From contig JAHHIL010000002.1 of NCBI GenBank assembly GCA_019358975.1, positions 124,001-188,000 on the forward strand: 64,000 nt of DNA, read 5' to 3'. How positions within the stretch are numbered: the stretch's first letter is position 1; every line of letters starts with the position of its first letter. The stretch is from Trichocoleus desertorum ATA4-8-CV12. GTDB lineage: Bacteria > Cyanobacteriota > Cyanobacteriia > FACHB-46. Positions 30,310-46,520 of this stretch are shown one piece after another. The notes below the pieces were generated by a model. The model saw only the letters and a list, made by a program, of their open reading frames with translations, ran no database searches and had not been told where the DNA came from. The position numbers and the translations under genes were made by a program.

Positions 30310-31707
30310 ATGTATCAAGGTTTATTGGTGATCGATGCGGATGCCCATAAGCTCGAAAATCCCCTGCTACTGAGGGATTATATAGAGCCACAGTATCGTG
30401 ATCGCATTGGTTTAGTGATTGATAGCTTGGGTGACCAGCGGGCTAAGTTGATTGACTTTAACCCCGCTACTGGCAAAAACGATTATGTGCGGATGTTTCC
30501 TCAGCCTCAAGGCTTGGGCAAAGGTGGCTTCCGCAACCTCCATCCTGAAACAACCCTGGGTGCCATGTTCAACCGGGTTCGGATTGAGCACATGGATCGC
30601 GAAGGTGTAGATGTCCAAGTCATCTACGGCACGCTCAACCTAATTTTCTCTAGTATTTTAGATAAAGATTTTGCGATTGCCCTTTGTCGCGCCTACAACA
30701 CCTACATGGCAGACGACTGCCGTGGCTATGACAACCGCCTCAAGCCTATCGGTGTGCTTCCTCTACAGGATGTGGATGCGGCCATAGTCGAGATGAAGCG
30801 CTGCGTCAACGAGCTAGGTATGATCGGTGTGGCTGTGGCCCCCAACATGCCGATTCCGCATCCCAAAGCCCCCGATGCTTTCCCCGAAGTCCGCACTTGC
30901 AAGAACATTAGCCATCCCGACTTCCGCCCACTCCTGCAAACCGCAGTAGACCTTGATATTGCCCTCGGCATTCACGGTGGCCCTGGTTCCTACATGGTGG
31001 GTGGTATTGCTGACCACATGGAGACTTTTGTGCTCAGCCACATCTTCGTGCAGCGCAATCAGCAGCAGCTAGCAATGGCGCGGATGGTATTTGATGGTGC
31101 CTTTGAGCAATTCCCCACACTGCGGGTTGGTTTTCTCGAAGGTGGCTGTGGTTGGATTCCCGACCTCGCCCATGCTTTCCATGAACACTGGGAGAAGCGG
31201 ATTCGCGATTTCGATCCTAAGAATCCTTACCGTCCTTCGCTAATGGACTTCACCAAGCTGATGATCCAAGAGCGGGGTGTGCAAAACGTTAATCTACTCA
31301 ATCAGGCAAAAAATCTGTTCGACTTGCTCTGGAGCGCTGAGCACGATCCAGCCAAGATTGATGACGCAAGCTTATATGAGCACTACGACCTGCGTCACCG
31401 CGATCCCCTAGACTACTTCAATCGCGGACAAATCTTTGCTTCCTACGAGTCGGATGATCCAGGCCCTTCCTATATGCCTCAAGCGATGGGTGAAGCGGGC
31501 AAGCACATTCCCTGCTTCTCTGGCGACTACGGTCACTGGGATGGTGTTCTGAAGGATTGTGTCAAGGATGCAGCGACCGCGACTGAGTACGATCGCGACC
31601 ACCTCGGTTTGCTGCTGGGTGGCAATGCATTGGCCTTGTATGGCGATCGCCTCCGCAACTCCTTACCCGATTACGTCAAGGCAGACGCAACTGTAGCTGC
31701 CCAGTAA
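30310..31707 (+). CDS. Amidohydrolase-2 (ACMSD-like) family metallohydrolase
   Basis: 465 residues. TIM-barrel metal-dependent hydrolase or decarboxylase of the amidohydrolase_2 family: an N-terminal metal motif DADAH (D9-H13), IGVLPLQDVDAAIVEMKR, the strand-end His in GIHGGPGS, FLEGGCGWIPDLAHAF and the distal acidic motif FSGDYGHWDG. The family includes ACMSD and resorcylate decarboxylases; the substrate cannot be read here. It is larger than average, with an insertion of about 60 residues (310-390, rich in Asp/Tyr) before the last barrel strands. gaggagc precedes the ATG closely. A hairpin-rich leader separates it from the Mpo1-like gene. Confidence 0.85.
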   Translation: MYQGLLVIDADAHKLENPLLLRDYIEPQYRDRIGLVIDSLGDQRAKLIDFNPATGKNDYVRMFPQPQGLGKGGFRNLHPETTLGAMFNRVRIEHMDREGVDVQVIYGTLNLIFSSILDKDFAIALCRAYNTYMADDCRGYDNRLKPIGVLPLQDVDAAIVEMKRCVNELGMIGVAVAPNMPIPHPKAPDAFPEVRTCKNISHPDFRPLLQTAVDLDIALGIHGGPGSYMVGGIADHMETFVLSHIFVQRNQQQLAMARMVFDGAFEQFPTLRVGFLEGGCGWIPDLAHAFHEHWEKRIRDFDPKNPYRPSLMDFTKLMIQERGVQNVNLLNQAKNLFDLLWSAEHDPAKIDDASLYEHYDLRHRDPLDYFNRGQIFASYESDDPGPSYMPQAMGEAGKHIPCFSGDYGHWDGVLKDCVKDAATATEYDRDHLGLLLGGNALALYGDRLRNSLPDYVKADATVAAQ

Positions 31708-31733
31708 TCAGTAGTCCGACAACTGGTAATAAT

Positions 31734-31767
31734 TTTGAGTGGTGTAGGCTTTGTCCCACCACTCAAA
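31734..31767. terminator. Perfect inverted repeat between convergent genes
   Basis: 11-bp arms tttgagtggtg (31734-31744) and caccactcaaa (31757-31767) around 12 nt. It lies between the amidohydrolase stop and the convergent epimerase stop. T-runs are weak on both sides. Confidence 0.6.
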
Positions 31768-31828
31768 GTCCTAATCTATATACCACCTACTAATCTAGGA
31801 TCGTGGATTAAGCGCTAAGCGATATTGC

Positions 31829-32779
31829 TTAGGCGTATAAAGCCTGAATCCACTGCCATTCTTGGGCTAAACCTTCTGCTAGCGAGACCTTTGGCTCATA
31901 GCCGATCAACTTTTGAGCTTTAGAAACATCGGCTGCTGTGTGACGGGCATCTCCCATCGCTGACTCAATATGGTTGCGGCGAATCGGCTGACCCACAATT
32001 TTTTCCATTGTTTCCAGCACTTCGGTCAAGACTACACGGCTGCCTCCGCCAATATTGAAGACTTCACCTACAGCCTCAGGGACAGTTGCGGCTGCTAGAT
32101 TAGCGGCGATCGCATCAGCAACAAAGGTAAAGTCACGAGTTTGCTGACCGTCTCCATAAATCGGAATAGCCTGATCCTCTAAAACTGCCTTAAAAAACTT
32201 ATGGAACGCCATGTCTGGGCGCTGGCGGGGTCCATAAACCGTGAAGTAACGCAGAGCTGTCACAGGTACCCCAAAATTTTGGTGATATAGCCAGCACAAG
32301 CGCTCCGCTGCCAGCTTAGTAATCCCGTAGGGAGAAACGGGCTGCGGACAAATAGACTCATAGGTAGGCAGCGTTTCAGCATTGCCATAAACCGATGAAG
32401 TCGAGGCAAACACAAATCGTTTTAACTGCTTGGCCTCCTTCGCCGCCTCCAGCAAAATCTGAGTCGCATTGAGGTTACGTTCGGTATAAGCTAAAAATCC
32501 TGAGCCCCAGCTCGCTCTCACCCCAGCTTGAGCCGCTTGATGGTAAATTACATCAGCATTTGCCAGCAACTCTGCCCAATTGGCCGTTTGAATATCACCC
32601 TGAATTAATTGAAACTCTGGATGTTCTTTGAAGCCAGCAATATTTCCCCACTTAAGTGCTGGATCGTAGTAATCATTAAATTGATCGATTCCAATCACCC
32701 TTTCACCGCGTTTGAGCAGTGTCTCAGCCAGATGAGAACCGATGAACCCTGCAACACCTGTGACAATACTAGTACTCAT
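31829..32779 (-). CDS. NAD-dependent nucleotide-sugar epimerase/dehydratase
   Basis: 316 residues, extended SDR fold. NAD-binding GVAGFIGSH at 8-16, IDQFNDYYDP, the catalytic Ser in ASTSSVYG and the YGITK dyad, RYFTVYGPRQRPDMA and the substrate-side FNIGGGSRV. The pattern is closest to UDP-glucuronate/UDP-glucose 4-epimerases. It likely supplies activated sugars to the glycosyltransferases upstream on the same strand (32878-34796), 98 bp away. It marks the left edge of the glycan island. Confidence 0.88.
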   Translation of the reverse strand: MSTSIVTGVAGFIGSHLAETLLKRGERVIGIDQFNDYYDPALKWGNIAGFKEHPEFQLIQGDIQTANWAELLANADVIYHQAAQAGVRASWGSGFLAYTERNLNATQILLEAAKEAKQLKRFVFASTSSVYGNAETLPTYESICPQPVSPYGITKLAAERLCWLYHQNFGVPVTALRYFTVYGPRQRPDMAFHKFFKAVLEDQAIPIYGDGQQTRDFTFVADAIAANLAAATVPEAVGEVFNIGGGSRVVLTEVLETMEKIVGQPIRRNHIESAMGDARHTAADVSKAQKLIGYEPKVSLAEGLAQEWQWIQALYA

Positions 32780-32877
32780 AAACTTTAACTGTAGGTTTCT
32801 AAGAGTTACACGTTACTAATTAATAGCTAGCTAACAGGACTAGCTAACAAATCAATTGATTCTGTTTGGTGCAGGCA

Positions 32878-33783
32878 TCAGAATTGGCTCCGAACTTTGT
32901 TGACTAACTTTTGCCAGAATTTCCCCTTGGGTAGGGCTGAGATTGGATCAGCGGGTGCAGGCTCATGCAGATAGCGGTAGTGCTTCCAAGTGTCCCAGTA
33001 AGCACCACCTGGCTGAATTCTTACTCCTGCCCAATGCAAATAGCGAAGTGGCAAGTCAACTTTTGCATCGACCAAGATATTTCCTTGCTGCTGAAAGTGT
33101 TTGCTTCCAGCCCAGCAGCCAGGTTGCTTCTGCGGGCTTTGAGCTAAATTTAACCGCTGCGGAATATGCTTTAAGACCAGATAATTTAGAACGGTTTGGT
33201 CAGAGTTGAGCAAAAAGAAATACTTAGGATGGCTAACACAGGCCCTAAAAGTATCATAAATGTTTTCTTCAGTGAGTAAGCCTTTTTTAGAAGCCCAAAA
33301 GCCACTGTTAAATATGTCTTTTAGTTCAGTATCACTAAAGATTTTATCTTCGATGATTTCGGGCATAAAAACTTGCTTGATGCCACCTGTGTATTGGTAG
33401 TCATAACAAAGAAAACCATAGTCAGTTAAATACTCTAAAACATGACTGATTTTCTCGAAAACTACAATATCTGTATCAATATAAAGAAATTCCTCAAATG
33501 GGCCAAACCAACAAGCAAGTTTACGAAGTAAATTGGGGCGATCGAAGAGTTTATCTCCACAAACTTGCTGCAATTGCTCTGACAAACGTTGCAAGAACGC
33601 CATATCGTCATAAACCTGAACCCCATGCGATCGCTGCAATTGCTCGGCTGCAACCTGATATTGATCGTTATAGGGGATCATGACAATGGGTGTATCCGCA
33701 TCATAGGCTCGAATACTGTTAAGCAAAGCGATCGCCTGATCCAACACGCGATCGTTCGCCAGAATGTAAATTCCACGGCTCAT
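32878..33783 (-). CDS. GT8-like glycosyltransferase (Npun_R2821/R2823-type)
   Basis: 301 residues. GT-A fold: it starts GIYILANDRVLDQAIALLNSI with an early Rossmann strand, and a DxD motif in FLYIDTDIVVF (about residue 100) should bind a metal and nucleotide sugar. NSGFWASKKGLL and LRYLHWAGV are shared with its neighbour. These are cyanobacterial Npun_R2821/Npun_R2823-type proteins from memory; sugar and acceptor are unknown. The gene is more AT-rich than the housekeeping genes nearby, which hints at transfer. It starts 8 bp after the paralogue, so the pair is co-transcribed. Confidence 0.78.
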   Translation of the reverse strand: MSRGIYILANDRVLDQAIALLNSIRAYDADTPIVMIPYNDQYQVAAEQLQRSHGVQVYDDMAFLQRLSEQLQQVCGDKLFDRPNLLRKLACWFGPFEEFLYIDTDIVVFEKISHVLEYLTDYGFLCYDYQYTGGIKQVFMPEIIEDKIFSDTELKDIFNSGFWASKKGLLTEENIYDTFRACVSHPKYFFLLNSDQTVLNYLVLKHIPQRLNLAQSPQKQPGCWAGSKHFQQQGNILVDAKVDLPLRYLHWAGVRIQPGGAYWDTWKHYRYLHEPAPADPISALPKGKFWQKLVNKVRSQF

Positions 33784-33791
33784 TTAAAACC

Positions 33792-34796
33792 TCAGCGACT
33801 CAATCCCAATTTCTTCAATGCCCGATCCACAAAAGTAGGAGGTTTATCATAAGCTTGGGGCTTATTTGTAAACTGGGGACGTTTCTCAGGCTCGTGCAGA
33901 TAGCGATAATGCAAGAAAATGTCGCGGTAAGGAAATTCTATATTTTCTCCACTGCACAACCGAGCAAACAGTTTAGAAGACAAACCAATGTAATGCAGAT
34001 AAGTAAGCTGTGCTTCCTTGTCGTACAAAACCTGATCCCTCAGCTCAAAATGATCAGAAGTAACGGCATTTCCAGTCGCCTGATCTGCTGGCAACTGTAA
34101 GGCCAGATTGTGCACGGGTATCTCAGACCGCATCACCATATAGTTCAGCACAGACTGATTAGGAGCAGGCATACAAAGAACCTCAGCTTCACCTGCTTGC
34201 AATTGAGTAATCAGCCAGTCGCGTTGTTTTTGGTCTAGCAATCCTCGTTTAGAGGCATACATGCCAGCACAGAAAACTTCTGAGCGAATCCTAGATTCCG
34301 GAAAAACTATCTTTAGCTTAGGAGATTGTAAATTGTAGATGTGCCGAGGACTTTTGTATTGGAAATCATAAACAACAAAATTATGAGCATCTAGCGCCCG
34401 AAAAATGTTTTGTAAGGAATTCATCACTAGAACATCGGCGTCTAAGTAGATAAATCTTTCAAAAGGAGCGACTGGATCAAACGCCGCATACCGTCGATTC
34501 ATGCCTAGACGATGAACCCCAGAAATTCCTTGTTCTTGCCAAGTTTTCAGTGCAGTGGGATGAGCTGCCCAAACCTGTTTTGAGAAGTCTTCCCAAGGGG
34601 CAAATAAAGTCGGATCTTCTAAAAGCGTGACATTCTCTCTGGCGGCAATTTCTGTACGTACCTTATCTACTCGCTCGTCATAAGCAATGACACAGACGGG
34701 TAGTGAGCTACCAACGTTCGCTTCAATGCTGTTGAGGAGAGCTACTAACTGGTCATAGACCACATCATTAGCAAGGGTATAGATACCGTCTACCAT
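33792..34796 (-). CDS. GT8-like glycosyltransferase, tandem paralogue
   Basis: About 334 residues, GT-A fold: VDGIYTLANDVVYDQLVALLNSI at the start, a DxD in FIYLDADVLVM near residue 115, FCAGMYASKRGLLDQ and LTYLHYIGL, all alignable with the gene downstream. The ATG at 34796 is chosen because ggagag lies 4 bp upstream; an ATG 12 bp earlier also exists. It is first in the leftward unit of the island (this gene, its paralogue, the epimerase). The two may add successive sugars of the same glycan, as inference. Confidence 0.78.
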   Translation of the reverse strand: MVDGIYTLANDVVYDQLVALLNSIEANVGSSLPVCVIAYDERVDKVRTEIAARENVTLLEDPTLFAPWEDFSKQVWAAHPTALKTWQEQGISGVHRLGMNRRYAAFDPVAPFERFIYLDADVLVMNSLQNIFRALDAHNFVVYDFQYKSPRHIYNLQSPKLKIVFPESRIRSEVFCAGMYASKRGLLDQKQRDWLITQLQAGEAEVLCMPAPNQSVLNYMVMRSEIPVHNLALQLPADQATGNAVTSDHFELRDQVLYDKEAQLTYLHYIGLSSKLFARLCSGENIEFPYRDIFLHYRYLHEPEKRPQFTNKPQAYDKPPTFVDRALKKLGLSR

Positions 34797-35173
34797 TGAA
34801 CTCTCCATGCGTACAGGCTTGATGGCAACTTAAGGGCACTCATGTATTTTCTTCATGAGTTACAGTCTAAAATCCGTTGATCTTTATAATTGAAGTTTCA
34901 ACTGCTAACAGGCATGAATCCTCTAAACCCTACTAATAAGGCTCTAAAATTGCAAACCATCTGAGCTGAATAGTTGATATTTTCAAGGTTTCTTCTTAAA
35001 AATCTTCATCGACTTTATGTTTTCTTTGCAGGATGTCCTTTAGGCTATTTATTGGGCTTTCAACCCCTAAAACAATGTCAATACCCACTTAAAATCAATG
35101 GCAGAAGCAAAGCCTTTGGCAGGCTCTACTACCCCCGGCATATTTGAATTCCACGTAAGTTAAGGAAAGATTA
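34797..35173. other. 377-bp divergent control region of the glycan island
   Basis: AT-rich, non-coding; separates the leftward GT8-like unit from the rightward glycosyltransferases. It has actcatg (34838-34844) and catgagt (34854-34860), a 7-bp inverted repeat with a T-rich loop, and taaggaaag just before the ATG at 35174. No open frame of note. Confidence 0.5.
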
Positions 35174-36115
35174 ATGGCATCTCTCACTTGCTCATTATCC
35201 ATACTGGCGGCGCGGACTGATGTTCCCTTCATGATGCACACCATTCCTCATTTAGTGAGGGCTTGCAACTTTCCTTTCACCCAACGTCTTCTAGCCATCG
35301 ACACTGCTCCGCTCTCCGGTGACAAGATTGGTCGCCCAGGTATTGGCACTCTTGAGGAGGTGCGAAGCAACTGTGACCAGCTCTTGCAGTCAGGTGTGGT
35401 TGATAGAGTAGCTGATATCGATTACTCGGAAGCCTACCACAACCGTATCTATGCTAAACACTTCGGTCGCCGGATTCGCCAAACCCACAACTATAAAGGT
35501 TATCCCATCTTAGGCACCCTCTTTAAGATCGAGGAAGCCCAGAGTGATTATGTACTTCACTTTGACAGCGATATGTTGCTCCACCAAGCTCCTGGCTATA
35601 GCTGGATTGAGGAAGGCATAGCACTGCTGCAAAAACATCCTGAGATCATGGCTGTCCGACCCTTAACTGGACCACCGACGATGGACGGTAGCCTGTATCA
35701 ACGTGTCCCCTATGATCGTGATCCCGATGGCTTCTATCGCTTCAAATTCTTTAGTAGTCGGGCTTACCTAATCGACGTTAAGCGGTTTGAGCAGCTACTA
35801 CCATTGCCTATTCTGTGGCGATCGTACAAAAACGAAATTCTCAATCAGTTACCCAACCCTGTTAAAACGACCCTGAACTATCTCACTGGCAAAAACGCTT
35901 TAGATTCCTGGGAGATCATGGTTTCCAATCGGATTGAAGATACTGAATACGTACGGGCTGTTATTGACTCTCCGAAAGCTTGGACGGTGCATCCTAAAGA
36001 CCGTGGCCCCGAGTTTATTGCGGCTCTGCCTAGCCTGATTCAAAAAATTGAGTCAGGTTGGTACCCCCCTGAGCAAGCGGGGCAATATGACCTCCAGTTT
36101 CAGGCTTGGCTTTAA
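35174..36115 (+). CDS. GT-A-type glycosyltransferase
   Basis: 313 residues without membrane spans. It shows an N-terminal strand SLTCSLSILAARTDVPFMMHTIPHL, a central metal-binding D131-x-D133 in LHFDSDMLLH, and FFSSRAYLIDVKRFEQLLP followed by DSWEIMVSNRI, in the manner of GT-A enzymes related to GT2. Start supported by aaggaaag 6-10 bp upstream. First gene of the rightward part of the island, 77 bp before a putative GT-B gene. Donor and acceptor are unknown. Confidence 0.72.
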   Translation: MASLTCSLSILAARTDVPFMMHTIPHLVRACNFPFTQRLLAIDTAPLSGDKIGRPGIGTLEEVRSNCDQLLQSGVVDRVADIDYSEAYHNRIYAKHFGRRIRQTHNYKGYPILGTLFKIEEAQSDYVLHFDSDMLLHQAPGYSWIEEGIALLQKHPEIMAVRPLTGPPTMDGSLYQRVPYDRDPDGFYRFKFFSSRAYLIDVKRFEQLLPLPILWRSYKNEILNQLPNPVKTTLNYLTGKNALDSWEIMVSNRIEDTEYVRAVIDSPKAWTVHPKDRGPEFIAALPSLIQKIESGWYPPEQAGQYDLQFQAWL

Positions 36116-36192
36116 TAAGTAGTTGCTCAAAAGCACCATCTTTTACCCAGCGCTAGTGATATTCGTACAAATTACCTATTCTGATTACACCC

Positions 36193-37287
36193 ATGACTAG
36201 CCAGTTACCCCCGATTTATTTTTATCTTCCTCAAGCCGACTGGCCTGTCGGTAATATGCTCGAGAGTACGAACAGCTATCAAGAGGTTTATAAAAATTGC
36301 CGTTCTACGGGAACGTTCAATTGGATCTTACAAACCTACCTTCGCCTTAAAGAGAATGGTTTTCCTTGCGAACTGGTAGGAAGCATGCCTACTGAAGGGA
36401 TTGTCGTTGCTGGTTTGTCTTCTGTCCCCCCCGATCTACGTCCTAGGCCCAAGCTATTAATTGTGGTGCCGTATGGCGATAAGACTCCCCATCCCTACGC
36501 TCAAGTCCATGTAGTTCAGAACCCTCAGGAAATCCTTAAACCTTACCGCTTACTAGGAGACAGGTATCTATTGCCTGGAGAAAAGTATTATATTCCCCAC
36601 TGGCCACAACCAACTTTAATTCCTCGCAATCCTGATCGAGGCGATCGCTTTGAGACGATTGCTTTCTTTGGCCGGGAAGTCAATATTGTTCCAGAGTTCA
36701 AACACCCACAGTGGCACGAGCAGCTAGGTCACTTAGGACTACAATGGCGCCTTATCAGTAACGTAGAGTACTGGAATGATTACAGCGAAGTAGATGCAGT
36801 CTTAGCAGTACGTAGTTTTAATAAACAAGGGGATTACTACTGGAAGCCAGCTTCCAAGTTGTATAACGCTTGGCATGCGGGTGTACCAGCGATTCTAGGT
36901 TGCGAATCAGCTTACCAAGCAGAGCGGAAGAGCGATTTGGACTATATAGAAGTTGCTTCATTAGATGAGACGCTCTCAGCACTTAAACAACTCAGAGATG
37001 ATCCAGAATCGCGCCGAGCGATCGTTGCCAATGGAAGAATGCGCGCTGAAGAAACCCAACCTGAAAAGCTGATTGCGCGCTGGCGAACCTTTTTTGCAGA
37101 TGTAGCAGTTCCAGCTTATGAACGCTGGTGTAATGGCTCAGAATGGAGCCGAGAAACGTTTTTGATGCGACGACAGCTGGCAATTGAGACACAGGATATG
37201 CGGAAAAACTTGCAACAAGTTCGTAACTATTTAGGACTGCGTAGCCGTTTCCGCACAGTTATGTCTCGTGTTACTGGTACTCCTTAA
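36193..37287 (+). CDS. Putative GT-B glycosyltransferase, paralogue 1 of 3
   Basis: 364 residues. N-terminal part: PPIYFYLPQADWP, FNWILQTYLRLKENGFPCELVGSMP and HPYAQVHVVQNPQE; C-terminal part with DRFETIAFFGRE, DAVLAVRSF and KPASKLYNAWHAGVPAILGCESAYQ, which has the shape of the donor-binding region of GT-B enzymes. About 45-55% similar by eye to the genes at 37372 and 39553, so a local gene triplication. No signal peptide or membrane span. The family is not one I can name. It probably acts on the nucleotide-sugar pool at the cytoplasmic face. Confidence 0.68.
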   Translation: MTSQLPPIYFYLPQADWPVGNMLESTNSYQEVYKNCRSTGTFNWILQTYLRLKENGFPCELVGSMPTEGIVVAGLSSVPPDLRPRPKLLIVVPYGDKTPHPYAQVHVVQNPQEILKPYRLLGDRYLLPGEKYYIPHWPQPTLIPRNPDRGDRFETIAFFGREVNIVPEFKHPQWHEQLGHLGLQWRLISNVEYWNDYSEVDAVLAVRSFNKQGDYYWKPASKLYNAWHAGVPAILGCESAYQAERKSDLDYIEVASLDETLSALKQLRDDPESRRAIVANGRMRAEETQPEKLIARWRTFFADVAVPAYERWCNGSEWSRETFLMRRQLAIETQDMRKNLQQVRNYLGLRSRFRTVMSRVTGTP

Positions 37288-37371
37288 GGATTTATGCCAA
37301 TTTTCAAGCCTTAGTATTATTAGTGTTTATCCATTATTACCTTGCTTGGCCTCCACTTTTTTCCGTACCCT

Positions 37372-38430
37372 ATGCCTGGAAAGCTACCACCAACTTATTT
37401 TTATATCCCTGAGGCCGATTGGCCTGCTGAGATGCCTAAGCATGCTAGTACCTATTGGCAATGGCAGTGTTCTCAGGTAGGTAGCCGAGGGATCTATAAC
37501 TGGACGCTACAAACCTATTTGCAGCTTCGAGATGCAGGCTTTCCGTGTGAACTAGTTGGAACATTGCCCACTGTGGGTATCCTGGTTGCCCACCGAGATT
37601 CGCTCCCTGATGAACTGCGACCAGGACCGCAATCGCTAATCGTTTGCATTCAAGGCGATAAAGCTCGCCACCCTTATGCACAGCTACATCTTGCACAAAA
37701 TTCTCAAGAGGAAATGCTAGTTCGTGGAATCAAACTTTGGCAGAGCTACTACATTCCCTTTTGGCCCCAACCTGGTCTGATTCCTCGTGACTCTAGCGGT
37801 GGCGATCGCTTTGAGAATATTGCCTTCTTTGGTCGAGAGCGTGAACTAGCTGCGGAACTAAAAACTTCAATGTGGCAAGAGCAACTGAGTCAATTAGGCT
37901 TGCAGTGGCAGATTGTTAGTCGCGATCGCTGGCATGATTACAGCCAGGTTGACGCTATTTTGGCAGTACGAAATTTTGGTAAGCAAAGTGATTACCAATG
38001 GAAACCTGCTTCTAAATTAGTCAATGCTTGGCATGCTGGTGTACCTGCTATCTTGAGCCGTGAATCAGCCTACCAAGCCGAGCGCCAAACAGAGTTGGAT
38101 TACATTGAGGTCAACTCAATGGCCGAAATCTTAGCAGCTCTAAAAAAACTACGGGATCACAAAGAGTTGCGAGCAGCAATGGTCGAGAATGGCAGATTAC
38201 GGGCAGAAGCGATCAAACCTACTAAACTAGCTGAGAAATGGAGTGATTTCCTCAAGGATGTTGCCGTTCCAGCCTATGAGCGTTGGTGCGGAGACCCTAG
38301 TTGGCAACGGCAAACCTTTTTGACTCAGCGCTATTTAGCAGTTGAAACAAAGGATTTGCGGCACCAAGCACGAATTATGCGATCGCGAATCTCAGGCCCA
38401 ATCAAAACAGTTTTAGGACGCAGCAAATAA
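37372..38430 (+). CDS. Putative GT-B glycosyltransferase, paralogue 2 of 3
   Basis: About 352 residues from the ATG at 37372, chosen because PGKLPPTYFYIPEADWP then aligns with the paralogues; an upstream start at 37342 adds ten unrelated residues. Same landmarks: YNWTLQTYLQLRDAGFPCELVGTLP, DRFENIAFFGRE, DAILAVRNF and KPASKLVNAWHAGVPAILSRESAYQ. It differs from paralogue 1 mostly in the first 60 residues and at the C-terminus. 84 bp separate it from the first copy, and an inverted repeat (tagagg 38460, cctcta 38489) follows before the next gene. Confidence 0.68.
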   Translation: MPGKLPPTYFYIPEADWPAEMPKHASTYWQWQCSQVGSRGIYNWTLQTYLQLRDAGFPCELVGTLPTVGILVAHRDSLPDELRPGPQSLIVCIQGDKARHPYAQLHLAQNSQEEMLVRGIKLWQSYYIPFWPQPGLIPRDSSGGDRFENIAFFGRERELAAELKTSMWQEQLSQLGLQWQIVSRDRWHDYSQVDAILAVRNFGKQSDYQWKPASKLVNAWHAGVPAILSRESAYQAERQTELDYIEVNSMAEILAALKKLRDHKELRAAMVENGRLRAEAIKPTKLAEKWSDFLKDVAVPAYERWCGDPSWQRQTFLTQRYLAVETKDLRHQARIMRSRISGPIKTVLGRSK

Positions 38431-38516
38431 TATTTTTCTTTAGTACCATTTTTCATACCTAGAGGAAAAGGCGGAGGGTGCTTGAGCCCCTCTAAGAGCA
38501 TAAACTAAACGACTAC

Positions 38517-39437
38517 ATGACAACTTGCTATTTCATCCAAACTCATAAGCATCCAGAACAAATCTATCGGCTTGTTCGAACGATCAAACGGTCTAGTCCA
38601 ACCGCAAAAATATTAATTGGGCATGACTTCATAAATTGTCAGTTAGATTTTTCACCATTGCGTGACCTACCAAATATTGATCTGCTTAAGATTAATTTTT
38701 CCGTAAGGCGGGGTAGATTTTCTCTCCTGCAACCATACCTTAATGCTATCGAATGGCTGCACCAGCATAATCAGGAATTTGATTGGTTGGTCTACCTATC
38801 AGGGCAAGACTACCCTACCCAGTCACTACATCAGATGGAACAATTTTTAAGTGACAGTGGCTACGATGGATTTATGCGCTACTGGGACATTAACTCTCCA
38901 GAAAGTCCTTGGGGAGCAGAAAAAGGACACAGGCGTTATTGCTATCACTATTATGAGTTACCAGATAAATTAGCTAGATGGTTCTTTGTTCGTAGGTCAA
39001 AAATTGAACGACTGTCACCTATCCGATTTTATCCAACCTATGGTTCTCTAATAGGATTACCAGCCCGATCAGTGCCATTTAATGAGAAATTTGTCTGCTA
39101 TGGTGGCAGACAGTGGCATTCTCTGTCCAGAAAGTGTATTAATTTCCTCAGAAATTTCTTCATACAGGATCGATCTCTCATTAATTACTACCAACGAACG
39201 GTTGTTCCCGATGAGTCTTTGATTCAAACAATATTAGTGAATAGTGGTTTATTCCATCTATGTAATGACGATAGACGTTATGTTGATTTCTCAGGCGACC
39301 AAGCAGGACATCCTCGAACATTAACTGTTCAGGACTATGAGACGCTTAAAAGCGAAAAGTTCTCCTTTGCTAGAAAGTTTGATCTCAATGAAGATGTAGA
39401 AATTTTAGATCTGCTTGATGCCAAAATTTTCGGCTAA
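38517..39437 (+). CDS. GT14-like beta-N-acetylglucosaminyltransferase (core-2/I-branching type)
   Basis: 306 residues. Family features: CYFIQTHKHPEQIYRLVRTI at the start, DWLVYLSGQDYPTQSLHQMEQFL (the LSG.DYP signature), GGRQWHSLSRKC and PDESLIQTILVNSG with the probable catalytic acidic pair. GT14 enzymes add branching sugars such as GlcNAc or xylose. The gene is clearly AT-richer than the ones on either side and splits the triplicated paralogues, so it looks inserted. No membrane segment. The linkage and sugar made here are unknown. Confidence 0.82.
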   Translation: MTTCYFIQTHKHPEQIYRLVRTIKRSSPTAKILIGHDFINCQLDFSPLRDLPNIDLLKINFSVRRGRFSLLQPYLNAIEWLHQHNQEFDWLVYLSGQDYPTQSLHQMEQFLSDSGYDGFMRYWDINSPESPWGAEKGHRRYCYHYYELPDKLARWFFVRRSKIERLSPIRFYPTYGSLIGLPARSVPFNEKFVCYGGRQWHSLSRKCINFLRNFFIQDRSLINYYQRTVVPDESLIQTILVNSGLFHLCNDDRRYVDFSGDQAGHPRTLTVQDYETLKSEKFSFARKFDLNEDVEILDLLDAKIFG

Positions 39438-39552
39438 GTAAACTCTGATTTTTTATTTAATAGAAGCTACTAAAGTAGAGACCGTTAAAGCCAGAATTAA
39501 GATTTATTTAGATGGGTACTTCAACTTAAATTAACAAGTATCAGGCACTCCT

Positions 39553-40605
39553 ATGGTTCAAACATTGCCTCCCATTTACTTCTACATCCCTTGCCAAGAT
39601 TTCCCACCTGATGGACTTCCAAAAAATATGGCCGAATATTGGCAATGGAAGTTTTCAGTTTCTGAAAAGTACCGAAGTGGCAAATATGATTGGGTTTTGC
39701 AGACATTCCTCTACTTACAGGAAGCTGGCTTTCCTTGCCAGCTAATTCAGCACTTACCAGAGGAAGGAATCCTAGTTTCTCATCGGGACTTTTTAGCATT
39801 TGATCTACAGCCTCAGCCGAAGGTGCTGATGGTTTGCATCCAGGCAGATCGCCCTAACCATCCCTATGCTCAGCTTCACATCGTTCAAAATTCTCAGGAT
39901 CCCAAGCAGCAGCAACTCAGCAACTTTTGGGAGAGCTATTACATTCCTTTATGGATACAGCCTTCGTTAAAGCCACGCTGTTCTGAACGCGGCGATCGCA
40001 TTGAGAATGTGGCTTACTATGGTATCAAATACAACTTGGCAGCGGAACTAAAAGATCCCGCTTGGCAAGAGCAACTACAAGCTCTCGGGCTGAATTGGCA
40101 AATAGTCAGACCTGAACAATGGCATGACTATAGCAATGTAGACGTCCTGATTGGCGTACGTAGCTTTGAGTATGACGGACAGTATCTCTGGAAGCCTCCT
40201 TCTAAGTTATTGAATGCTTGGCATGCAGGCGTTCCAGCAGTTTTAGGTTGTGAATCTGCATTTAGGGCGCAACGACAAAGTGACCTTGATTATCTCGAAG
40301 TTCACTCCCCAAAGGATACGCTTTCAGCACTAAAGCGATTGCAGAATGAGCCAGAACTCCGCCGAGCTATGATCGAGCACGGCAAAACCCGTGCCAAAGA
40401 TAGCCAACCTGCAAAGATGGTTGAGCGTTGGTGCAACTTCTTGATCAATACGGCAACGCCAGCTTATTACCGCTGGGTGAATGCGAACCCCTGGGGACAG
40501 CAAACTTTCCTCAAGCGTCGCTACCTATTGATTAAGACTCAAGGTTTGCAGCGTCGTTTGCGATCGCTCGTCAGCCCTATTTCTGAGAATGGCAACTGGA
40601 ACTAA
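39553..40605 (+). CDS. Putative GT-B glycosyltransferase, paralogue 3 of 3
   Basis: 350 residues. PPIYFYIPCQDFPPDG, YDWVLQTFLYLQEAGFPCQLIQHLP, HPYAQLHIVQNSQDP, DRIENVAYYGIKYNLAAELKDP and KPPSKLLNAWHAGVPAVLGCESAFR match paralogues 1 and 2. It is the most diverged copy: AFFGRE is AYYGIK, and VLAVR is LIGVR. It lies 115 bp after the GT14-like gene and is convergent with the ABC exporter, 73 bp apart. Separate copies may use different acceptors, as inference. Confidence 0.68.
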   Translation: MVQTLPPIYFYIPCQDFPPDGLPKNMAEYWQWKFSVSEKYRSGKYDWVLQTFLYLQEAGFPCQLIQHLPEEGILVSHRDFLAFDLQPQPKVLMVCIQADRPNHPYAQLHIVQNSQDPKQQQLSNFWESYYIPLWIQPSLKPRCSERGDRIENVAYYGIKYNLAAELKDPAWQEQLQALGLNWQIVRPEQWHDYSNVDVLIGVRSFEYDGQYLWKPPSKLLNAWHAGVPAVLGCESAFRAQRQSDLDYLEVHSPKDTLSALKRLQNEPELRRAMIEHGKTRAKDSQPAKMVERWCNFLINTATPAYYRWVNANPWGQQTFLKRRYLLIKTQGLQRRLRSLVSPISENGNWN

Positions 40606-40678
40606 GCGTTTTTAAAACCTACAAACTATAAGTTAATTTCGTGAGATTTATGGCTTATAGGCTCCAATATCCAGGAAG

Positions 40679-42697
40679 TTAAACTGGAGACTTCATCTCG
40701 GTTGTATCTTCAAGAGACTCTAAAGTTTGTAGTAGCTTAACTGCCGAGTAGTAGGCTTCTTCCGTAAGTTCGTTGGCTTCTTCTGGGTTTTCCGTCATAC
40801 CATCAACGATCAGCTTTAAGGAACCAATCATGGAATTCAGCCGACTACGAATTTCATAAGAGGTTTTGGATAAAGCGTCATGCTTGCTGACTTTGAGGGC
40901 TTCTTGGGTGTCCTCGGAAAACTGCATTAGACATAGGCGGGCATAATAACCACCTTGTTTTAACAGCTCTTCGTGGGAACCTAGCTCTACAACAGAGCCT
41001 TTTTCCATTACCGCGATTTGATGCGCTTTTTGCACCGTGGAGAGTCGGTGAGCAATCACTAAAGTGGTGCGATCGCGGCTCAGTTCGTCTATAGCTTGTT
41101 GCACTAAGCGCTCCGACACTGTATCCAAGGCGCTGGTTGCTTCATCCAAGATCAAGATTTCCGGATTACGCAGAAGGGCACGAGCAATGGCAAGGCGCTG
41201 ACGTTGGCCCCCAGAGAGTAAAACACCGCGATCGCCTAAAGGTGTATCAAAGCCTTGAGGCAACTGGACAATAAACTCGTAAGCATTCGATCGCTTAGCC
41301 GCCTCAATTACATCCTCATCGGTGGCATCCTCTTTACCATAGGCAATATTGTTACGGACTGAATCATTGAACAAGAAGGTGTCTTGGCTAACGATCCCCA
41401 TTGCCCTTCTTAGGGATTGGAGATTAAACTCTCGCAGATCTTGGTTGTCTATAGTGATGCGGCCTTCCGTAGGCTCATAAAACCTAGGCAACAAATCAGC
41501 CATCGTTGACTTTCCGGCACCAGAGGCTCCTACCAAAGCCAACGTTGTTCCTCGTGGTACCCAGAGGTCTACATTTTTCAAAACTAAGCTGTTGCGGCTA
41601 GGATAAGCGAACGAGACATTTTCAAATCGGATGCCCTGCTCTAGTTTCTTATAGGCCACCGCACCACTTTGCATAAAGGGTTTGTTGTCGCGACGGAGGA
41701 AATCAGTGACGCTCTCCACACTAGCCGAGGCATTCGCAAATGCGTTCCGGGCGTTGTTTAACTGACTGATAACGGGAAGGAGCCGAAAGAGGACAAATAA
41801 GTAAGTCAGTAATACAGCCGAGACAGCTTCTAGTTGCTGGAAGAAAAAAGTCCGCCCCACAAAGAGGATTGCTAACACTGCCAGCAGTCCAGACATTTCG
41901 TTCACGGGTCCGATCGCTGCAGAGTTAGCCTGAGATTGAAACTCAGCCTTCTCTCGGATCAGAATCAAATTCTCAAGTTGCTTATATTCTTTTTCTTCAT
42001 TGCCAGCAGCCTTAATGAGGCGAATACCAGTTAAGACATCTAGCAAGCGACTAGAGTAAACGCGGGCGATCTCGGTTAAGGTACGACCAAATTCTTTAGA
42101 GCGATGAATCCAGTATTGATTAGTTAGATTAACTAGTGAAAGTAAGCCTGTAGCAACCAAGGTCAACTGCCAGGATATTGATAGTAATATGCCAACAAAT
42201 ACCAAGATGGTGGCAACAGTTGAAACGAGTTGAAAGATAATTTGAACTGACCTGGCAGTTCGACTGACTTCATTACCAATTCGATTCGTAATATCACCAA
42301 TCTTAATTCGAGTGTAAAAGTCTAAATCAACTTCTAGAAGAATTCTCAATCCTTCTTTTCTGAGATCATTGACTAACAGACGAGCTAAATGACCTGCAGA
42401 CAAGGAGTTAACATATCCAGTTATATTTTTGAGAGCAATGGCAAATAGAATGGCCCCCAGCATTAGCAGTAGTCGATACTGCTCAGGAGCACTATCAAAC
42501 AGACCCATAATTCTTCGGATGATGGGTGGGCCACTATTCAAAACCACATCTTGACCTAAAAAGCCCAGGACTACAGGCACAATTAGAGTGGTGCTAACAC
42601 CGTTAAATAAGGCTCCTGAGAAGCCCAATATAATGGTAATGAAATTCCAAAATGGGTATCGGAGAGCGTACTTTATCAGTAACTGGTTGGGAGACAT
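40679..42697 (-). CDS. MsbA/HepA-type ABC exporter with degenerate histidine-kinase-like tail
   Basis: 672 residues. Six-span permease domain (about 15-330) fused to an ATPase domain (about 345-595): Walker A GASGAGKST, signature LSGGQRQRLAIARA, Walker B ILILDEATSALD and H-loop IAHRLS. It resembles HepA, the heterocyst polysaccharide exporter, and MsbA lipid flippases. The last 75 residues are extra: SYEIRSRLNSMIGSLKLIV and EEANELTEEAYYSAVKLLQTLE align with a HisKA dimerisation helix pair, but the phospho-acceptor His is replaced by Y614. Convergent with the glycosyltransferases, so it is the likely exporter for their product. aggaaac lies upstream of the ATG. Confidence 0.9.
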   Translation of the reverse strand: MSPNQLLIKYALRYPFWNFITIILGFSGALFNGVSTTLIVPVVLGFLGQDVVLNSGPPIIRRIMGLFDSAPEQYRLLLMLGAILFAIALKNITGYVNSLSAGHLARLLVNDLRKEGLRILLEVDLDFYTRIKIGDITNRIGNEVSRTARSVQIIFQLVSTVATILVFVGILLSISWQLTLVATGLLSLVNLTNQYWIHRSKEFGRTLTEIARVYSSRLLDVLTGIRLIKAAGNEEKEYKQLENLILIREKAEFQSQANSAAIGPVNEMSGLLAVLAILFVGRTFFFQQLEAVSAVLLTYLFVLFRLLPVISQLNNARNAFANASASVESVTDFLRRDNKPFMQSGAVAYKKLEQGIRFENVSFAYPSRNSLVLKNVDLWVPRGTTLALVGASGAGKSTMADLLPRFYEPTEGRITIDNQDLREFNLQSLRRAMGIVSQDTFLFNDSVRNNIAYGKEDATDEDVIEAAKRSNAYEFIVQLPQGFDTPLGDRGVLLSGGQRQRLAIARALLRNPEILILDEATSALDTVSERLVQQAIDELSRDRTTLVIAHRLSTVQKAHQIAVMEKGSVVELGSHEELLKQGGYYARLCLMQFSEDTQEALKVSKHDALSKTSYEIRSRLNSMIGSLKLIVDGMTENPEEANELTEEAYYSAVKLLQTLESLEDTTEMKSPV

Positions 42698-42854
42698 TCA
42701 GTGTTTCCTGTTTGTTTCCTGCTAATGGTTTCTAGCTAACAACAAATATTTTTTTATATCTAATATCTGAGATTGTCATTATCTCATTAAAACTTATTTT
42801 TGAAGTCGCCATTTCAAGTTCTAGAATTTAAAGCTTCTATTTTCTGTGCCCAAC

Positions 42855-42878
42855 GATGCACTAAATGATGCACTAAAT
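42855..42878 (+). repeat. Tandem 12-bp duplication upstream of the ABC exporter
   Basis: gatgcactaaat occurs at 42855-42866 and 42867-42878 within the 283-bp AT-rich gap between the exporter start and the end of the NAD operon. The gap has no other feature I can name. A role as an operator is possible but untested. Confidence 0.7.
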
Positions 42879-42980
42879 ATAGTTGGTTCCGCTATATGTT
42901 AGTCAATCTATTTTGGTGATTAGACGCACTCTCAAGGCTGCTTTATGTATTCTTCAAGGCGGTGTAAATATTAAGTGAAG

Positions 42981-43727
42981 TTAAATGAATACAAGCGGTT
43001 TGTCTTTCAACGGAGCAAAGGCATTGGCATCAAAGCGGTAGAGACTTGCGGGGCGTCCTGCTCCTCGCGACACCTTGATACCAGTGTCGTAGAGAAAGCC
43101 GAGCTTGAGCAGACGAGAGCGAAAATTGGAATAGTCAGAAAAATTCTCGCCTAGTACAGTTGTATAAAGTTGGTAGAGGTCGTTGAGCGTAAACAGGTCC
43201 GGTAGTACCTCGAATGCTATAGGACTATATTCCAGCTTGTTACGAAGTCGTTGATACCCATATTGCAGAATTCGATTGTGGTCAAAGGCTAGTTGGGGTA
43301 CTTGCTCTAGGGGATACCAGGCAATACCGCTCACACCATTGGCAACCAGTTCTGCTTCTTCGAACCGTACGAGGGCAAAATAGCTAACTGAAAGATAGCG
43401 CACGCCATAGCTATCCGGGGCTTCTCTGGGGTCGCGACCCAGTTCACCAAAGGTATAAAGCTGTTCTAGGTAAAGGTTTTTGACACGAATTTTTTCAGCC
43501 AAAATCCGATAGGCAGCTTCTTCTAGGGATTCTCCCTGTCGCACCAAGGTTCCGGGCAAACACCACTGACCTAGAAATGGCTCCTCTTGCCGCATGACTA
43601 ATAAAGCTAGGAGGCGGTTCTGAAGGGTATCGACTGAGAAGATGACGTTGTCTACTCCAACTTTGAAGTCCGCTAATGCTGTTTGGGTTACCGGATCTGC
43701 ACTCTTTTTGGGGCGGTGTCCTGGCAT
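42981..43727 (-). CDS. nrtR: Nudix-type regulator of NAD metabolism, NrtR family
   Basis: 248 residues. An N-terminal Nudix-fold domain (about 20-150) whose Nudix box is degenerate ([20 protein letters not shown], with RIL and EKI where catalysis needs RE..EE), then a C-terminal winged helix ([30 protein letters not shown] and [11 protein letters not shown]). This is the NrtR plan: an ADP-ribose-sensing repressor of NAD synthesis. It overlaps the end of nadD by 40 bp and follows pncB-nadD on the same strand, which strongly supports the role. A catalytic Nudix activity is unlikely. Its operator was not located. Confidence 0.87.
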
Positions 43728-44287
43728 GCGTACAATTGCTCTTGATGAATATAGGCTTCAACGGTTGGGGATAATGCTTCTGATTGGCCTGCTTCGCGGT
43801 AGGCGGTGGAGGAAATGGCAGGGCCAGTTAAGTCAGCGATCGCAACTTTTGCACCCAGCCGCCTTAATTCCGCCAAATCATTATCCTTTAGAGGGTAACC
43901 TGGCCGTGGAATAACCAAAAGCTTGACTTGTTGCAGTAAGTCTTCTATTCGATACCAAGTAGGCAATTGAGCCACTAAATCTGCCCCGATCGTGAGGGTG
44001 AGATCTGCATCAGGCCATTGCTTACGTGCCTGGTCTACGGTGATCAAGGTCCGAGGGCTGCTAAGTTCTGGCTGCAAACTAATATTGTGCCGTGGCGGTT
44101 CAATATCCTGAATCAACAGCCGCAGCATAGCGCTTCGATGCTCTAGAGGCGTTTGATGAGATTTGAAAGGATTATCAGAAGCCCACACCGCGACGTAGTC
44201 AAAGTGTTGAGATAACCAGCTTAAGATCGCTTGATGCCCAGCGGTCGGTGGGTCAGCACTAGTGCCAAAGAGAGCAATTTTTAGCAT
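43688..44287 (-). CDS. nadD: Nicotinate-nucleotide adenylyltransferase NadD
   Basis: About 199 residues. It adenylates nicotinate mononucleotide to form deamido-NAD. The start [21 protein letters not shown] has the GxFxPxHxGH-type motif with the variant SADPPTAGH, and ISSTAYR near the C-terminus is the second nucleotidyl-transfer motif. The ATG at 44287 is preferred over one 30 bp upstream, since homologues start just before the first strand. The last 40 bp are shared with nrtR in another frame, so the C-terminal 13 residues may be shaped by the overlap. Middle gene of pncB-nadD-nrtR. Confidence 0.88.
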
Positions 44288-44373
44288 AGGGAGTGACAAG
44301 GAAAATGGGTGAGTCATAAAGGAGCATCCAATAGAGGCAGGAGTCTAGAGGTAGGAGTCGCAAATCGTGACTG

Positions 44374-45717
44374 TTAGGCGTGGCGGGTTTTGTCTGTTAG
44401 TTCTAGGAGATGAGCGGAAATTTCCACAGGGGACGGGGATGGGCGATCGAGGCGACGTAGCTCTGCGGGCAAACTAGCCACTGCTGTGGCTGTGCGTTCA
44501 GCGATCGCCTCTAAGGATTCGGGTGGCTGTAAGCGCTCCCCTTGCTTAAAGACTGGTTGTAGCAATGGTTGCTCGTGCTGAGAAACTTCTGTAATCAACC
44601 CTAAGCGATCGCCCTGGATTTGTCCGTGTTCAAAGCGGCGAAAAATTTGCTTACGCCCTGGATAAGTTAGCTTACCGCTAGCCTCTTTCATGACAGGGAG
44701 ACCATCCAGTTCGACTAACTTATACACGCCATTGACAGGCTCTCCAGTGACTAATCGGGTGCCTACACCGTAGCCATCGATGCAAGCGCCTGCGGCCCGC
44801 AGTTCTGCAATTTTCCACTCGTCTAGATCCCCACTGGCAAAAATGGGCACGCCTGGAAGCCGCGATCGCACTTGCTGAGAGAGCGCCAGCAAATCGCCAG
44901 AATCAATTCTTACTCCTTCCAGGGTCATGGTGCCAGCTTTGACTTGCTGAGCGAGTTGATCGGCAGCGGCGATCGTGTTGTAGGTGTCGATTAGCAGAGG
45001 AGCCCCCGGGAAGTAGCGGTGAAAGGCGGTAAACGCTTCGATTTCACTTCCTTGGACGGCAGCTAAAGCCATCACTAAAGAGTGAGCCATCGTCCCGGCG
45101 GGCTGACGACCGAGCTGGAAAGCTGCCAGCACATTGGAGGTGGCATCTAAGCCAGCAGCTAAAGCGGCTCTTGCGGCCCAGAGTGCGGCCTGGGGGCCAA
45201 AAGCGCGACGAGTGCCAAACTCTAGCAACACGGCTTGCTGACCCGCTGCATCTCGGATTCGGGCGGCGCGGGTAGCAATGAGCGTTTGGTAGTTCAGCAC
45301 ATTGAGTAGATAGGTTTCTACAATTTGGGCTTGCCACAAAGGTGCTTCGATTCTTAACAGCGGTTCGTTGGCGAAGACAACAGTCCCTTCTGGAACGGCC
45401 CAAACATCTCCGGTAAAGCGAGCCGTTTCTAGCAAGCTCCAGAAGCGATCGGGGGCTTGGCTAAAAATGCCACTGGCTTGTAGAGCTGCAATTTGCGTTG
45501 CACTAAATTTGAGTTGTTCTAAGTACTCCAGTGCTTGAGCCAAACCCATCGCCACTAGATAGCCAAAATTCTCTGGTAAGCGTCGCACGGTTAGCTCAAA
45601 ACTAGCCCGACGCTGCTCAATACCTTCCCCGGTATAGCAGGCGGTCATGGTGAGCTGATAGAGATCGGTCAGCAAACTATAGTCTTCTGGCTGTAGCGTC
45701 AGCTCTAAATTGGCCAC
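44374..45717 (-). CDS. pncB: Nicotinate phosphoribosyltransferase PncB
   Basis: 447 residues. First enzyme of the Preiss-Handler salvage route: nicotinate plus PRPP gives nicotinate mononucleotide. Motifs: SLLTDLYQLTM at the start, EFGTRRAFGPQAAL, GTMAHSLVMAL with the catalytic-site His, and RIDSGDLLALS near 270. The length is normal for the short bacterial form. It leads the operon, 86 bp before nadD, and its product is NadD's substrate. The regulator NrtR is encoded last. A promoter and NrtR operator should lie in 45718-45850 but none was recognised. Confidence 0.93.
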   Translation of the reverse strand: MANLELTLQPEDYSLLTDLYQLTMTACYTGEGIEQRRASFELTVRRLPENFGYLVAMGLAQALEYLEQLKFSATQIAALQASGIFSQAPDRFWSLLETARFTGDVWAVPEGTVVFANEPLLRIEAPLWQAQIVETYLLNVLNYQTLIATRAARIRDAAGQQAVLLEFGTRRAFGPQAALWAARAALAAGLDATSNVLAAFQLGRQPAGTMAHSLVMALAAVQGSEIEAFTAFHRYFPGAPLLIDTYNTIAAADQLAQQVKAGTMTLEGVRIDSGDLLALSQQVRSRLPGVPIFASGDLDEWKIAELRAAGACIDGYGVGTRLVTGEPVNGVYKLVELDGLPVMKEASGKLTYPGRKQIFRRFEHGQIQGDRLGLITEVSQHEQPLLQPVFKQGERLQPPESLEAIAERTATAVASLPAELRRLDRPSPSPVEISAHLLELTDKTRHA

Positions 45718-46195
45718 CCTTCTCTCCTAGACCAGCAAAATTTTCAGGTTTGATTCTTTGCAAGGCAGCAAGTTTGCCCTCAATCCCCTAGGTTGCCTCA
45801 ACCAAGCAATTCAACCATGTTGCTTCAAATTACCTTTTCACAACTAGCTATCGATTGCCGTGTCAGTTGTTTCAAATTCAAATGGCCTTTTCTGGCAGGT
45901 TGGGTTTTGTTGTAACAGGGCCTTTGAATAATTATAGTCAAAATTACCAAAATTAGTGACTTGTCTGAGAGAAAACTAAGAAGTCTTAGGGCGATCGCAA
46001 GTCTTAGCTGACTCGGCACATCCTGATTAATTATCAAAGGTAAAGCAGTATCAAGAAGAGTAAATGGTGCTCCAACTAAGCTAAAGAATTATGCGCGTTA
46101 CGGCTCTTTCTAAAGGAGTTGGCGATAATGAAGATATCAGGTTACATAGCTTGGTTTAGATCGAGTCATTACTCACTAATCTTGAGAGCAACCTT
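45718..46195. other. 478-bp intergenic region upstream of pncB
   Basis: Divergent region between pncB and the small 46196 gene. One HIP1 octamer lies at about 45991. A 70-codon minus-strand frame here looks random. No hairpin with a T-run and no RNA gene was seen. Confidence 0.5.
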
Positions 46196-46345
46196 ATGAA
46201 GTTACGTACAACTTTTAATGATTTAGTTCAGTTTGTTTTTGGCGCGGTTAGCCGGATCTTTAGCCCTACCGACGATGAGTATCCTGCGACTGGTGTCCAG
46301 CCTTTTGAAGGAGATGTGAGATCAAGTCGGTCTTATGATCGGTAG
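46196..46345 (+). CDS. 49-residue small protein, unknown
   Basis: A short gene below usual length cut-offs. The product is MKLRTTFNDLVQFVFGAVSR followed by IFSPTDDEYPATGVQPFEGD and a polar end. The front half can form an amphipathic helix (hydrophobic V, F, L, I with R and D on one face). The back half has a compact Tyr-Pro/Gly-Val-Gln-Pro motif that looks selected rather than random. Codon use fits the neighbours. A clear stem-loop terminator lies about 135 bp downstream, consistent with a small mono-cistronic message. I recall similar C-termini in cyanobacterial small proteins but cannot name one. Confidence 0.6.
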   Translation: MKLRTTFNDLVQFVFGAVSRIFSPTDDEYPATGVQPFEGDVRSSRSYDR

Positions 46346-46480
46346 CCAATCAGGCGCTTGCCAGGTCTGCCCTGACCCAGAGAACCGAATCTAACCTCAA
46401 TTATTGCAATCCTAAATTGCATAACTGCTGTTGTAAATTGTCTAAATTAATCTGTGACTTTTACTGGTAAATCTTTCTAG

Positions 46481-46520
46481 CTCGGTGAAGTACCCTATCT
46501 ATTCTTCGCCGAGTTTAGTT
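46481..46520 (+). terminator. Hairpin terminator after the 49-residue gene
   Basis: ctcggtgaag (46481-46490) and cttcgccgag (46504-46513) pair over 10 bp with one G-T pair, 13-nt loop, followed by tttagtt. Plausible transcript end for the short gene. Confidence 0.65.

Follow-up and report, generated by a model that had tools for sequence, protein, structure and literature searches.

Three diverged genes for predicted GT-B-type glycosyltransferases in a variable, probable glycan-assembly locus of the cyanobacterium Trichocoleus desertorum

Three related genes, here called GTB1, GTB2, and GTB3 (copies 1 to 3), lie close together in the 64,000-nucleotide stretch of Trichocoleus desertorum ATA4-8-CV12 analyzed here (contig JAHHIL010000002.1, positions 124,001 to 188,000; referred to as the window). 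Most likely they encode GT-B glycosyltransferases of the PF13524/GT4-like type and lie in the exchangeable central part of a locus for surface-glycan assembly, beside conserved genes for precursor supply, sugar transfer, and export; the same explanation, held with good confidence as a whole, has the three-copy set put together from family members that were old and had diverged beforehand, and not produced by recent triplication. What is seen directly is the predicted fold, the intact invariant residues, the same-strand layout, transferase sets that differ among three species, and the glycan genes that adjoin family members in other genomes. Loci of this kind are known; the genes found in this one are new and have hardly been named.

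The GTB proteins and their predicted fold

GTB1 (positions 36193 to 37287, 364 amino acids), GTB2 (37372 to 38430, 352 amino acids counted from an ATG), and GTB3 (39553 to 40605, 350 amino acids) are encoded on the + strand by intact reading frames and are full-length paralogues. The mechanically called frame of GTB2 begins 10 codons upstream of the ATG, at a TTG at 37342. GTB1 and GTB2 are 56% identical, GTB1 and GTB3 46 to 47% (46% in the larger alignments), and GTB2 and GTB3 about 52%, GTB3 being the most divergent of the three, with 46 to 52% identity to the other two. This likeness extends over nearly the full length and is far above chance, and an earlier note on this DNA, which described three related genes in one orientation with a set of common motifs, is borne out on these points. 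The third codon positions of the three copies are only 0.36 to 0.39 identical, and any duplication must therefore be old. A search with copy 1 retrieved no further copy from the 6.06-Mb, 90-contig draft assembly, the remaining matches having E values above 0.1.

The family was described in that note as unnamed, which does not hold in the strict sense, since PF13524 (Glyco_trans_1_2) matches 34 of 50 family members at an E value of ≤0.01. Among the three window copies, only GTB1 scores above the curated cut-off of 25 bits (26.1 bits), with GTB2 at 23.8 and GTB3 at 17 bits. The match covers about 100 residues of the C-terminal half and leaves the N-terminal half uncovered, and 16 of the 50 members are unmatched at the same threshold. 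An NCBIfam scan of the copies gave nothing credible. PHROG 33989, for which no function is given, is the same family: it matches copy 1 at 2e-26, although this match is confined to residues 130 to 301, and a member on an IMG/VR contig matches it at 9e-171. Family GT10 was considered and rejected. The KPxSKLxNAWHAGVPA block of the copies resembles the TEKL.NA...G.VP block of GT10, but PF00852 matches none of the 50 members at an E value of ≤0.01, and an hhalign comparison of the family with a GT10 protein from a sister genome (G002) gave a probability of 0.7% and aligned other regions.

Sequence searches against solved structures were uninformative, with three matches for copy 1 alone, all taken for chance, and a single match (WlaC, E value of 0.11) for the 50-row profile, so that a comparison of folds was needed. 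An AlphaFold2 model built from a 12-row alignment has a predicted local distance difference test score (pLDDT) of 85.1 and a predicted template modeling score (pTM) of 0.83; it replaced a model from three rows (pLDDT of 70.5, Z score of 16.5 to PimA). Foldseek found 161 PDB matches to the model at an E value of ≤1e-3, and the best 50 of the 161 are all sugar transferases or synthases, either by name or as known enzymes of this kind (HepE, BshA, SdgB, TarM, and SenB), and are GT-B enzymes. In the 50 matches listed by VIA-align, the Z scores range from 17.2 to 19.6 over 254 to 275 residues at 8 to 16% identity. The aligned region spans about residues 3 to 311, in a fold of the GT-B kind (two Rossmann-like domains with a C-terminal helix that crosses back); the best score (19.6) is that of BshA, and SenB, PimA, PimB', MshA, SdgB, sucrose-phosphate synthase, and Anabaena HepE are also listed. 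With PimA, BshA, SenB, MshA, and Anabaena HepE (Alr3699), the whole two-domain fold is shared, with Z scores of 17.6 to 19.6 and a root mean square deviation of 3.0 to 3.8 over 254 to 273 residues. The predicted fold of the family is thus GT-B of the GT4 type, in agreement with the glycosyltransferase-like, GT-B assignment put forward earlier.

Eleven residues are invariant in all 50 aligned members (numbered as in copy 1): R145, G160, W194, D201, R207, K218, K222, L223, W227, W297, and W312. The 50-row alignment omits close, partial, or long-branch rows (L034, L068, L081, L086, L087, L088, L091, L094, and L100). In the 12-row alignment, which includes four IMG/VR members, ten of these residues are retained and W312 is lost. 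All eleven are present in GTB1, GTB2, and GTB3, and all three copies are therefore probably active.

Position 225 is the expected site of the second Glu in the EX7E motif of GT4 enzymes. It is Asn in 45 of the 50 members and otherwise Ser (3 members) or Gln (2 members), never Glu. Because this register comes from a weak pairwise alignment (probability of 1.1%), in which a P..KL...A.G.P segment of the family aligns with a GT4 protein of a sister genome, the substitution is a lead and not a result. In a different view, phrog_33989 and its relatives in cyanobacteria, other bacteria, and large IMG/VR contigs are a GT-B family apart, whose active site has K-P-x-x-K-L-x-N instead of the usual acidic pair, and the locus collects and exchanges diverged members for strain-specific surface glycans. 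The family differs from known enzymes in the 8 to 16% identity to the listed GT4-type matches, in the members unmatched by PF13524, and perhaps in the Asn at this position; the whole fold and the C-terminal PF13524 match are shared. We regard this view as a whole as possible but doubtful. If it were true, the three copies would use one donor and three successive acceptors and would offer a natural test set for the evolution of acceptor choice. The assignment as PF13524/GT4-like enzymes is the one followed below.

A constant frame around a variable set of transferases

The GTB genes belong to a + strand run of five genes (GTA, GTB1, GTB2, a GT14-like gene, and GTB3) with intergenic gaps of 77 to 115 bp. 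GTA (35174 to 36115), the first gene of the variable cassette, encodes a GT-A-like glycosyltransferase so assigned by its DxD motif alone. No Pfam or NCBIfam family matches it at an E value of ≤1, and a sequence search of the PDB gave no credible match; its HFDSDM segment is present in four of four aligned relatives, the DSD motif being invariant. The GT14-like gene, of the Core-2/I-branching type (38517 to 39437, + strand), matches PF02485 (Branch) with 58.6 bits (9e-16, above the cut-off of 23.4) and has a GC content of 0.394, the lowest of 11 genes measured and well below the 0.483 of the window. It had been described as an AT-rich gene separating the copies; its presence and composition are as described, but it sets apart only GTB3, as GTB1 and GTB2 are adjacent, with 84 bp between them.

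The constant part of the locus lies on the − strand, with 365 bp between it and the divergently oriented GTA, and consists of a gene for an NAD-dependent sugar-nucleotide epimerase/dehydratase (31829 to 32779; PF01370, 2.4e-56) and two GT8-like genes of the Npun_R2821/R2822 family, R2821b (32878 to 33783; NCBIfam NF045582, 325.8 bits) and R2821a (33792 to 34808; 413.6 bits), both above the cut-off of 250. A literature search for Npun_R2821 gave no paper. At the far edge, a HepA/MsbA-like ATP-binding cassette (ABC) exporter gene (40679 to 42697, − strand; PF00005 and PF00664) is conserved and convergent with GTB3 across a 73-bp gap. Its best NCBIfam model is NF045513, the HepA exporter of heterocyst envelope polysaccharide, yet the score of 566.7 bits falls short of the cut-off of 725, and under this cut-off the gene does not count as HepA. 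The epimerase, two GT8-like genes, GT-A-like gene, and exporter that had been proposed as parts of one glycan-assembly locus are thus all present, and the assignment agrees with the Pfam and NCBIfam matches, the sister loci, and the neighbors of the family elsewhere.

Positions 28001 to 46500 of the window were compared with two sister species of the genus, G001 and G002. The epimerase, R2821a, R2821b, and the exporter are kept in both, and the transferase set between R2821a and the exporter differs in all three species, GTA being common to two. This interval holds GTA, GTB1, GTB2, the GT14-like gene, and GTB3 in the window, GTA and a third R2821-like gene in G001, and one gene each for GT10 (PF00852, 51.3 bits) and GT4 (PF00534, 69.1 bits) in G002, where these two occupy the place of GTA to GTB3. 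GTB1 to GTB3 and the GT14-like gene have no match in either sister locus, and GTA has none in that of G002; in G001 it is 88% identical. Protein identity to G002 and G001, respectively, is 88% (84% in DNA) and 83% for the epimerase, 60% and 59% for R2821b, 65% and 78% for R2821a, and 93% and 87% for the exporter. Both flanks of the G002 locus are 90 to 93% identical in DNA (90 to 92% on the exporter side), and in G001 the DNA outward from the exporter is 81 to 84% identical.

The gene order in G002 is two transposase regions, epimerase, R2821b, R2821a, GT10, GT4, and exporter. From the exporter, that in G001 is the third R2821-like gene, GTA, R2821a, R2821b, and epimerase. In G001 the block is inverted and displaced (G001:C13:88263-120312), and the region is therefore rearranged within the genus. 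With these differences, the middle of the locus resembles a surface-glycan cassette that can be exchanged, and we infer that exchange caused them in preference to loss or gain. Serotype-type polysaccharide loci are built in this way, with a transferase cassette exchanged between conserved genes. The T. desertorum locus has in common with them a conserved exporter side, constant genes, and a middle that differs in three of three species; it differs from them in that no polymerase was identified among its nine genes and that just one sister keeps its left edge.

Two features of the sister loci are recorded as separate observations. The third R2821-like gene of G001 (L110:9935-10909) is 35% identical to R2821a; it adjoins the exporter, in the position that GTB1 to GTB3 take in the window. 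In G002, IS4/5-type and DDE_3 transposase genes (L109:4580-6764) separate an amidohydrolase gene from the epimerase, at one border of the variable locus; the same two genes are 121 bp apart in the window. A search of the window for signs of a mobile origin of the cassette found no tRNA or tmRNA and no Rfam match at gathering thresholds.

Ancestry of the three copies

The trees do not unite the three copies. In the 59-row tree, made from family matches with an aligned length above 200 (L036, at 180, was dropped), GTB1 pairs with a gene of Phormidium pseudopriestleyi (L007) with support of 100/95, and GTB2 and GTB3 each stand alone on unresolved branches. A 24-row subset, picked after the 59-row tree and leaving out the distant group, gave the same pairing of GTB1 (98/96). 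A single clade of all three copies is rejected by the approximately unbiased (AU) test with both the 59 rows (p = 0.024) and the 24 rows (p = 0.0029). The protein of P. pseudopriestleyi is also 61% identical to GTB1, more than either GTB2 (56%) or GTB3 (46 to 47%), so this copy is closer to a protein of another genus than to its neighbors, an outcome that the earlier note had named beforehand as one that would refute its proposal of a local triplication. With the 24 rows, the AU test does not reject pairs of copies as clades (GTB1 with GTB2, p = 0.076; GTB2 with GTB3, p = 0.465), and two of the three may therefore stem from an old duplication.

The P. pseudopriestleyi assembly (about 6.0 Mb) contains a single family member at an E value of ≤1e-3. 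It directly follows a GTA gene that is 73% identical to that of the window, in the same order, and the GTA-GTB1 pair therefore looks old or cotransferred; the R2821a homologue of that species is on another contig.

The preserved order in P. pseudopriestleyi, and the single GTB gene that UBA2566 keeps together with the epimerase, R2821b, R2821a, and an exporter, would also be expected if a distant ancestor had possessed a multicopy locus produced by an old duplication, most of whose descendants lost copies while the grouping of the copies was erased. Such a history would require many independent losses, three intact neighboring copies occur in no other of the 67 positive genomes (388 sampled, listing read by eye), and it is not cleanly separable from repeated gain by transfer; we consider it a tenable but lesser alternative. 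A lineage-specific tandem triplication, in which one ancestral gene was copied twice in place and the copies then diverged, has in its favor the close, co-oriented arrangement at 46 to 56% identity, its restriction to this genome among the 67 positives, the fact that GTB2 has its highest identity to GTB1, and the pairs that the AU test does not reject, but it is improbable given the rejected three-copy clade, the grouping of GTB1 with P. pseudopriestleyi, the low third-position identity, and the lack of any copy in both sister species. We therefore retain assembly from members that had already diverged.

Distribution and neighbors of the family

A family member is present at an E value of ≤1e-10 in 67 of 388 genomes of the class sample, or 41 of its 160 genera, and in neither of the two other genomes of the genus. 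Among the 67 positives, only the T. desertorum genome has three full copies within 5 kb (listing read by eye), and one other genome (G206) has two neighboring members. GTA was found in 39 of the 388 genomes (22 of 160 genera) at an E value of ≤1e-10 and R2821a in 147 at ≤1e-30. On reading the listings by eye, R2821a and GTA are within 5 kb of each other on the same contig in at least 11 of the 39 GTA genomes (the GTA of G367 is a fragment), and R2821a and GTB are within 5 kb in at least 4 of the 67, namely, the window, G059, G154, and G347; most GTB-bearing genomes have no R2821a neighbor among the matches listed.

Elsewhere, too, the family is found among glycan genes. In UBA2566 (L011), the one GTB gene lies between two sulfotransferase genes in a locus with the epimerase, both R2821 genes, and an exporter. 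Among 88 proteins encoded next to family members, there were 8 matches to Glycos_transf_2, 6 to Sulfotransfer_3, 6 to PS_pyruv_trans, 5 to Glycos_transf_1, and 3 to ABC_tran. A control set of 61 proteins, encoded at distances above 6 kb but still no farther than some 10 kb from these loci, gave 2 matches to Glycos_transf_2; the other four models do not appear among the 25 listed, so that each has no more than 1 match. WecG, GDP_Man_Dehyd, and similar glycan genes also turn up singly in the control set. The two sets were drawn from 107 near and 71 far genes after very long open reading frames and seemingly close-duplicate or short loci had been omitted.

Proposed function of the locus

Each copy most likely adds one sugar to an exported oligosaccharide. 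In the route that we propose, the epimerase would make an activated sugar; R2821a and R2821b, GTA, GTB1, GTB2, the GT14-like enzyme, and GTB3 would successively add sugars to a lipid-linked oligosaccharide at the cytoplasmic face; and the HepA/MsbA-like exporter would flip the product or export it to the cell surface. The lipid carrier, the order of addition, the donor and acceptor, the surface location, and export by this ABC protein are the parts of the route that we infer. In each GTB protein, the C-terminal half would bind a nucleotide sugar and the N-terminal half an acceptor, and the enzyme would make one linkage. The C-terminal half is the more alike of the two in 84% of 1,225 family pairs (0.62 versus 0.53 between copies 1 and 2 and 0.55 versus 0.42 between copies 1 and 3). 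Because the C-terminal halves are mostly better conserved and the N-terminal halves more diverged, the three paralogues would probably use similar donors and different acceptors and hence form a different linkage each, a reading that the pattern fits and does not prove.

Several observations weigh against this interpretation of the genes and the locus. The halves of GTB2 and GTB3 are equal (0.55 for the C-terminal and 0.54 for the N-terminal half), those of GTB1 and the P. pseudopriestleyi protein are slightly reversed (0.61 and 0.63), and the border between halves, at residues 145/146, was chosen by us. GTB2 and GTB3, as noted, score under the PF13524 cut-off. The genus comparison rests on two other genomes, and the left edge is conserved in G002 only; in G001, about 27 kb of their common contig separate the epimerase from the amidohydrolase flank (80 to 81% identical in DNA), relative to which the block is inverted. 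The neighbor statistic pools overlapping Pfam families, so that its matches are not all separate genes, in thinned sets. Among the nine locus genes scanned with Pfam and NCBIfam, no polymerase, initiating transferase, or outer membrane export protein was identified, so that surface export is a proposal. The constant genes could serve another product, and the sequence does not reveal the substrate, the carrier, or the type of product (O-antigen, capsule, or released polysaccharide).

The locus might instead direct protein glycosylation or the synthesis of a lipopolysaccharide core, and not that of a capsule, O-antigen, or exopolysaccharide. The ABC gene also has scores, under the cut-offs, with the exporter models for MsbA and PglK, and WlaC and PglA, of the Campylobacter protein-glycan pathways, are among the structural matches. 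We think this unlikely, as the scan of the nine genes showed no oligosaccharyltransferase and the sulfotransferase and pyruvyl transferase neighbors elsewhere fit an exopolysaccharide better. A surface-glycan cassette remains the preferred interpretation, and the sister comparison suggests a block that changes while the exporter side stays 81 to 92% identical in DNA. In one study (PMC12507012), phage-resistance mutations of cyanobacteria under nitrogen starvation are reported to have affected chiefly glycosyltransferase genes with a link to the cell surface, and a natural exchange site such as the GTB locus is therefore a candidate place to study phage pressure.

Distant relatives and minor observations

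Distant relatives of 31 to 33% identity are encoded on plasmids of Lawsonia (three records) and Sulfitobacter (two records), e.g., NC_008014.1 and NZ_CP084953.1. All five are annotated just as “hypothetical protein,” a label that the GT-B assignment can now replace with a name. The INPHARED phage records gave no match to copy 1 at an E value of ≤1e-3.

The loci in named records are cyanobacterial in four of five cases, and the fifth is on a contig labeled Candidatus Gracilibacteria (L008, JAAUUT010000063.1). The GTB gene of this contig groups with a Xenococcaceae gene (100/89) and has two GT14 homologues beside it; the contig is perhaps cyanobacterial and wrongly binned. In G292 (C414) and G385 (C181), the family member appears as two neighboring matching parts, which may be broken or frameshifted copies. 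Further distant relatives occur on ten IMG/VR contigs. On two of these, of 272 kb and 226 kb, the members are 35% identical to copy 1 (L112:4905-5888 and L113:4986-5990) and lie in similar neighborhoods of small genes.

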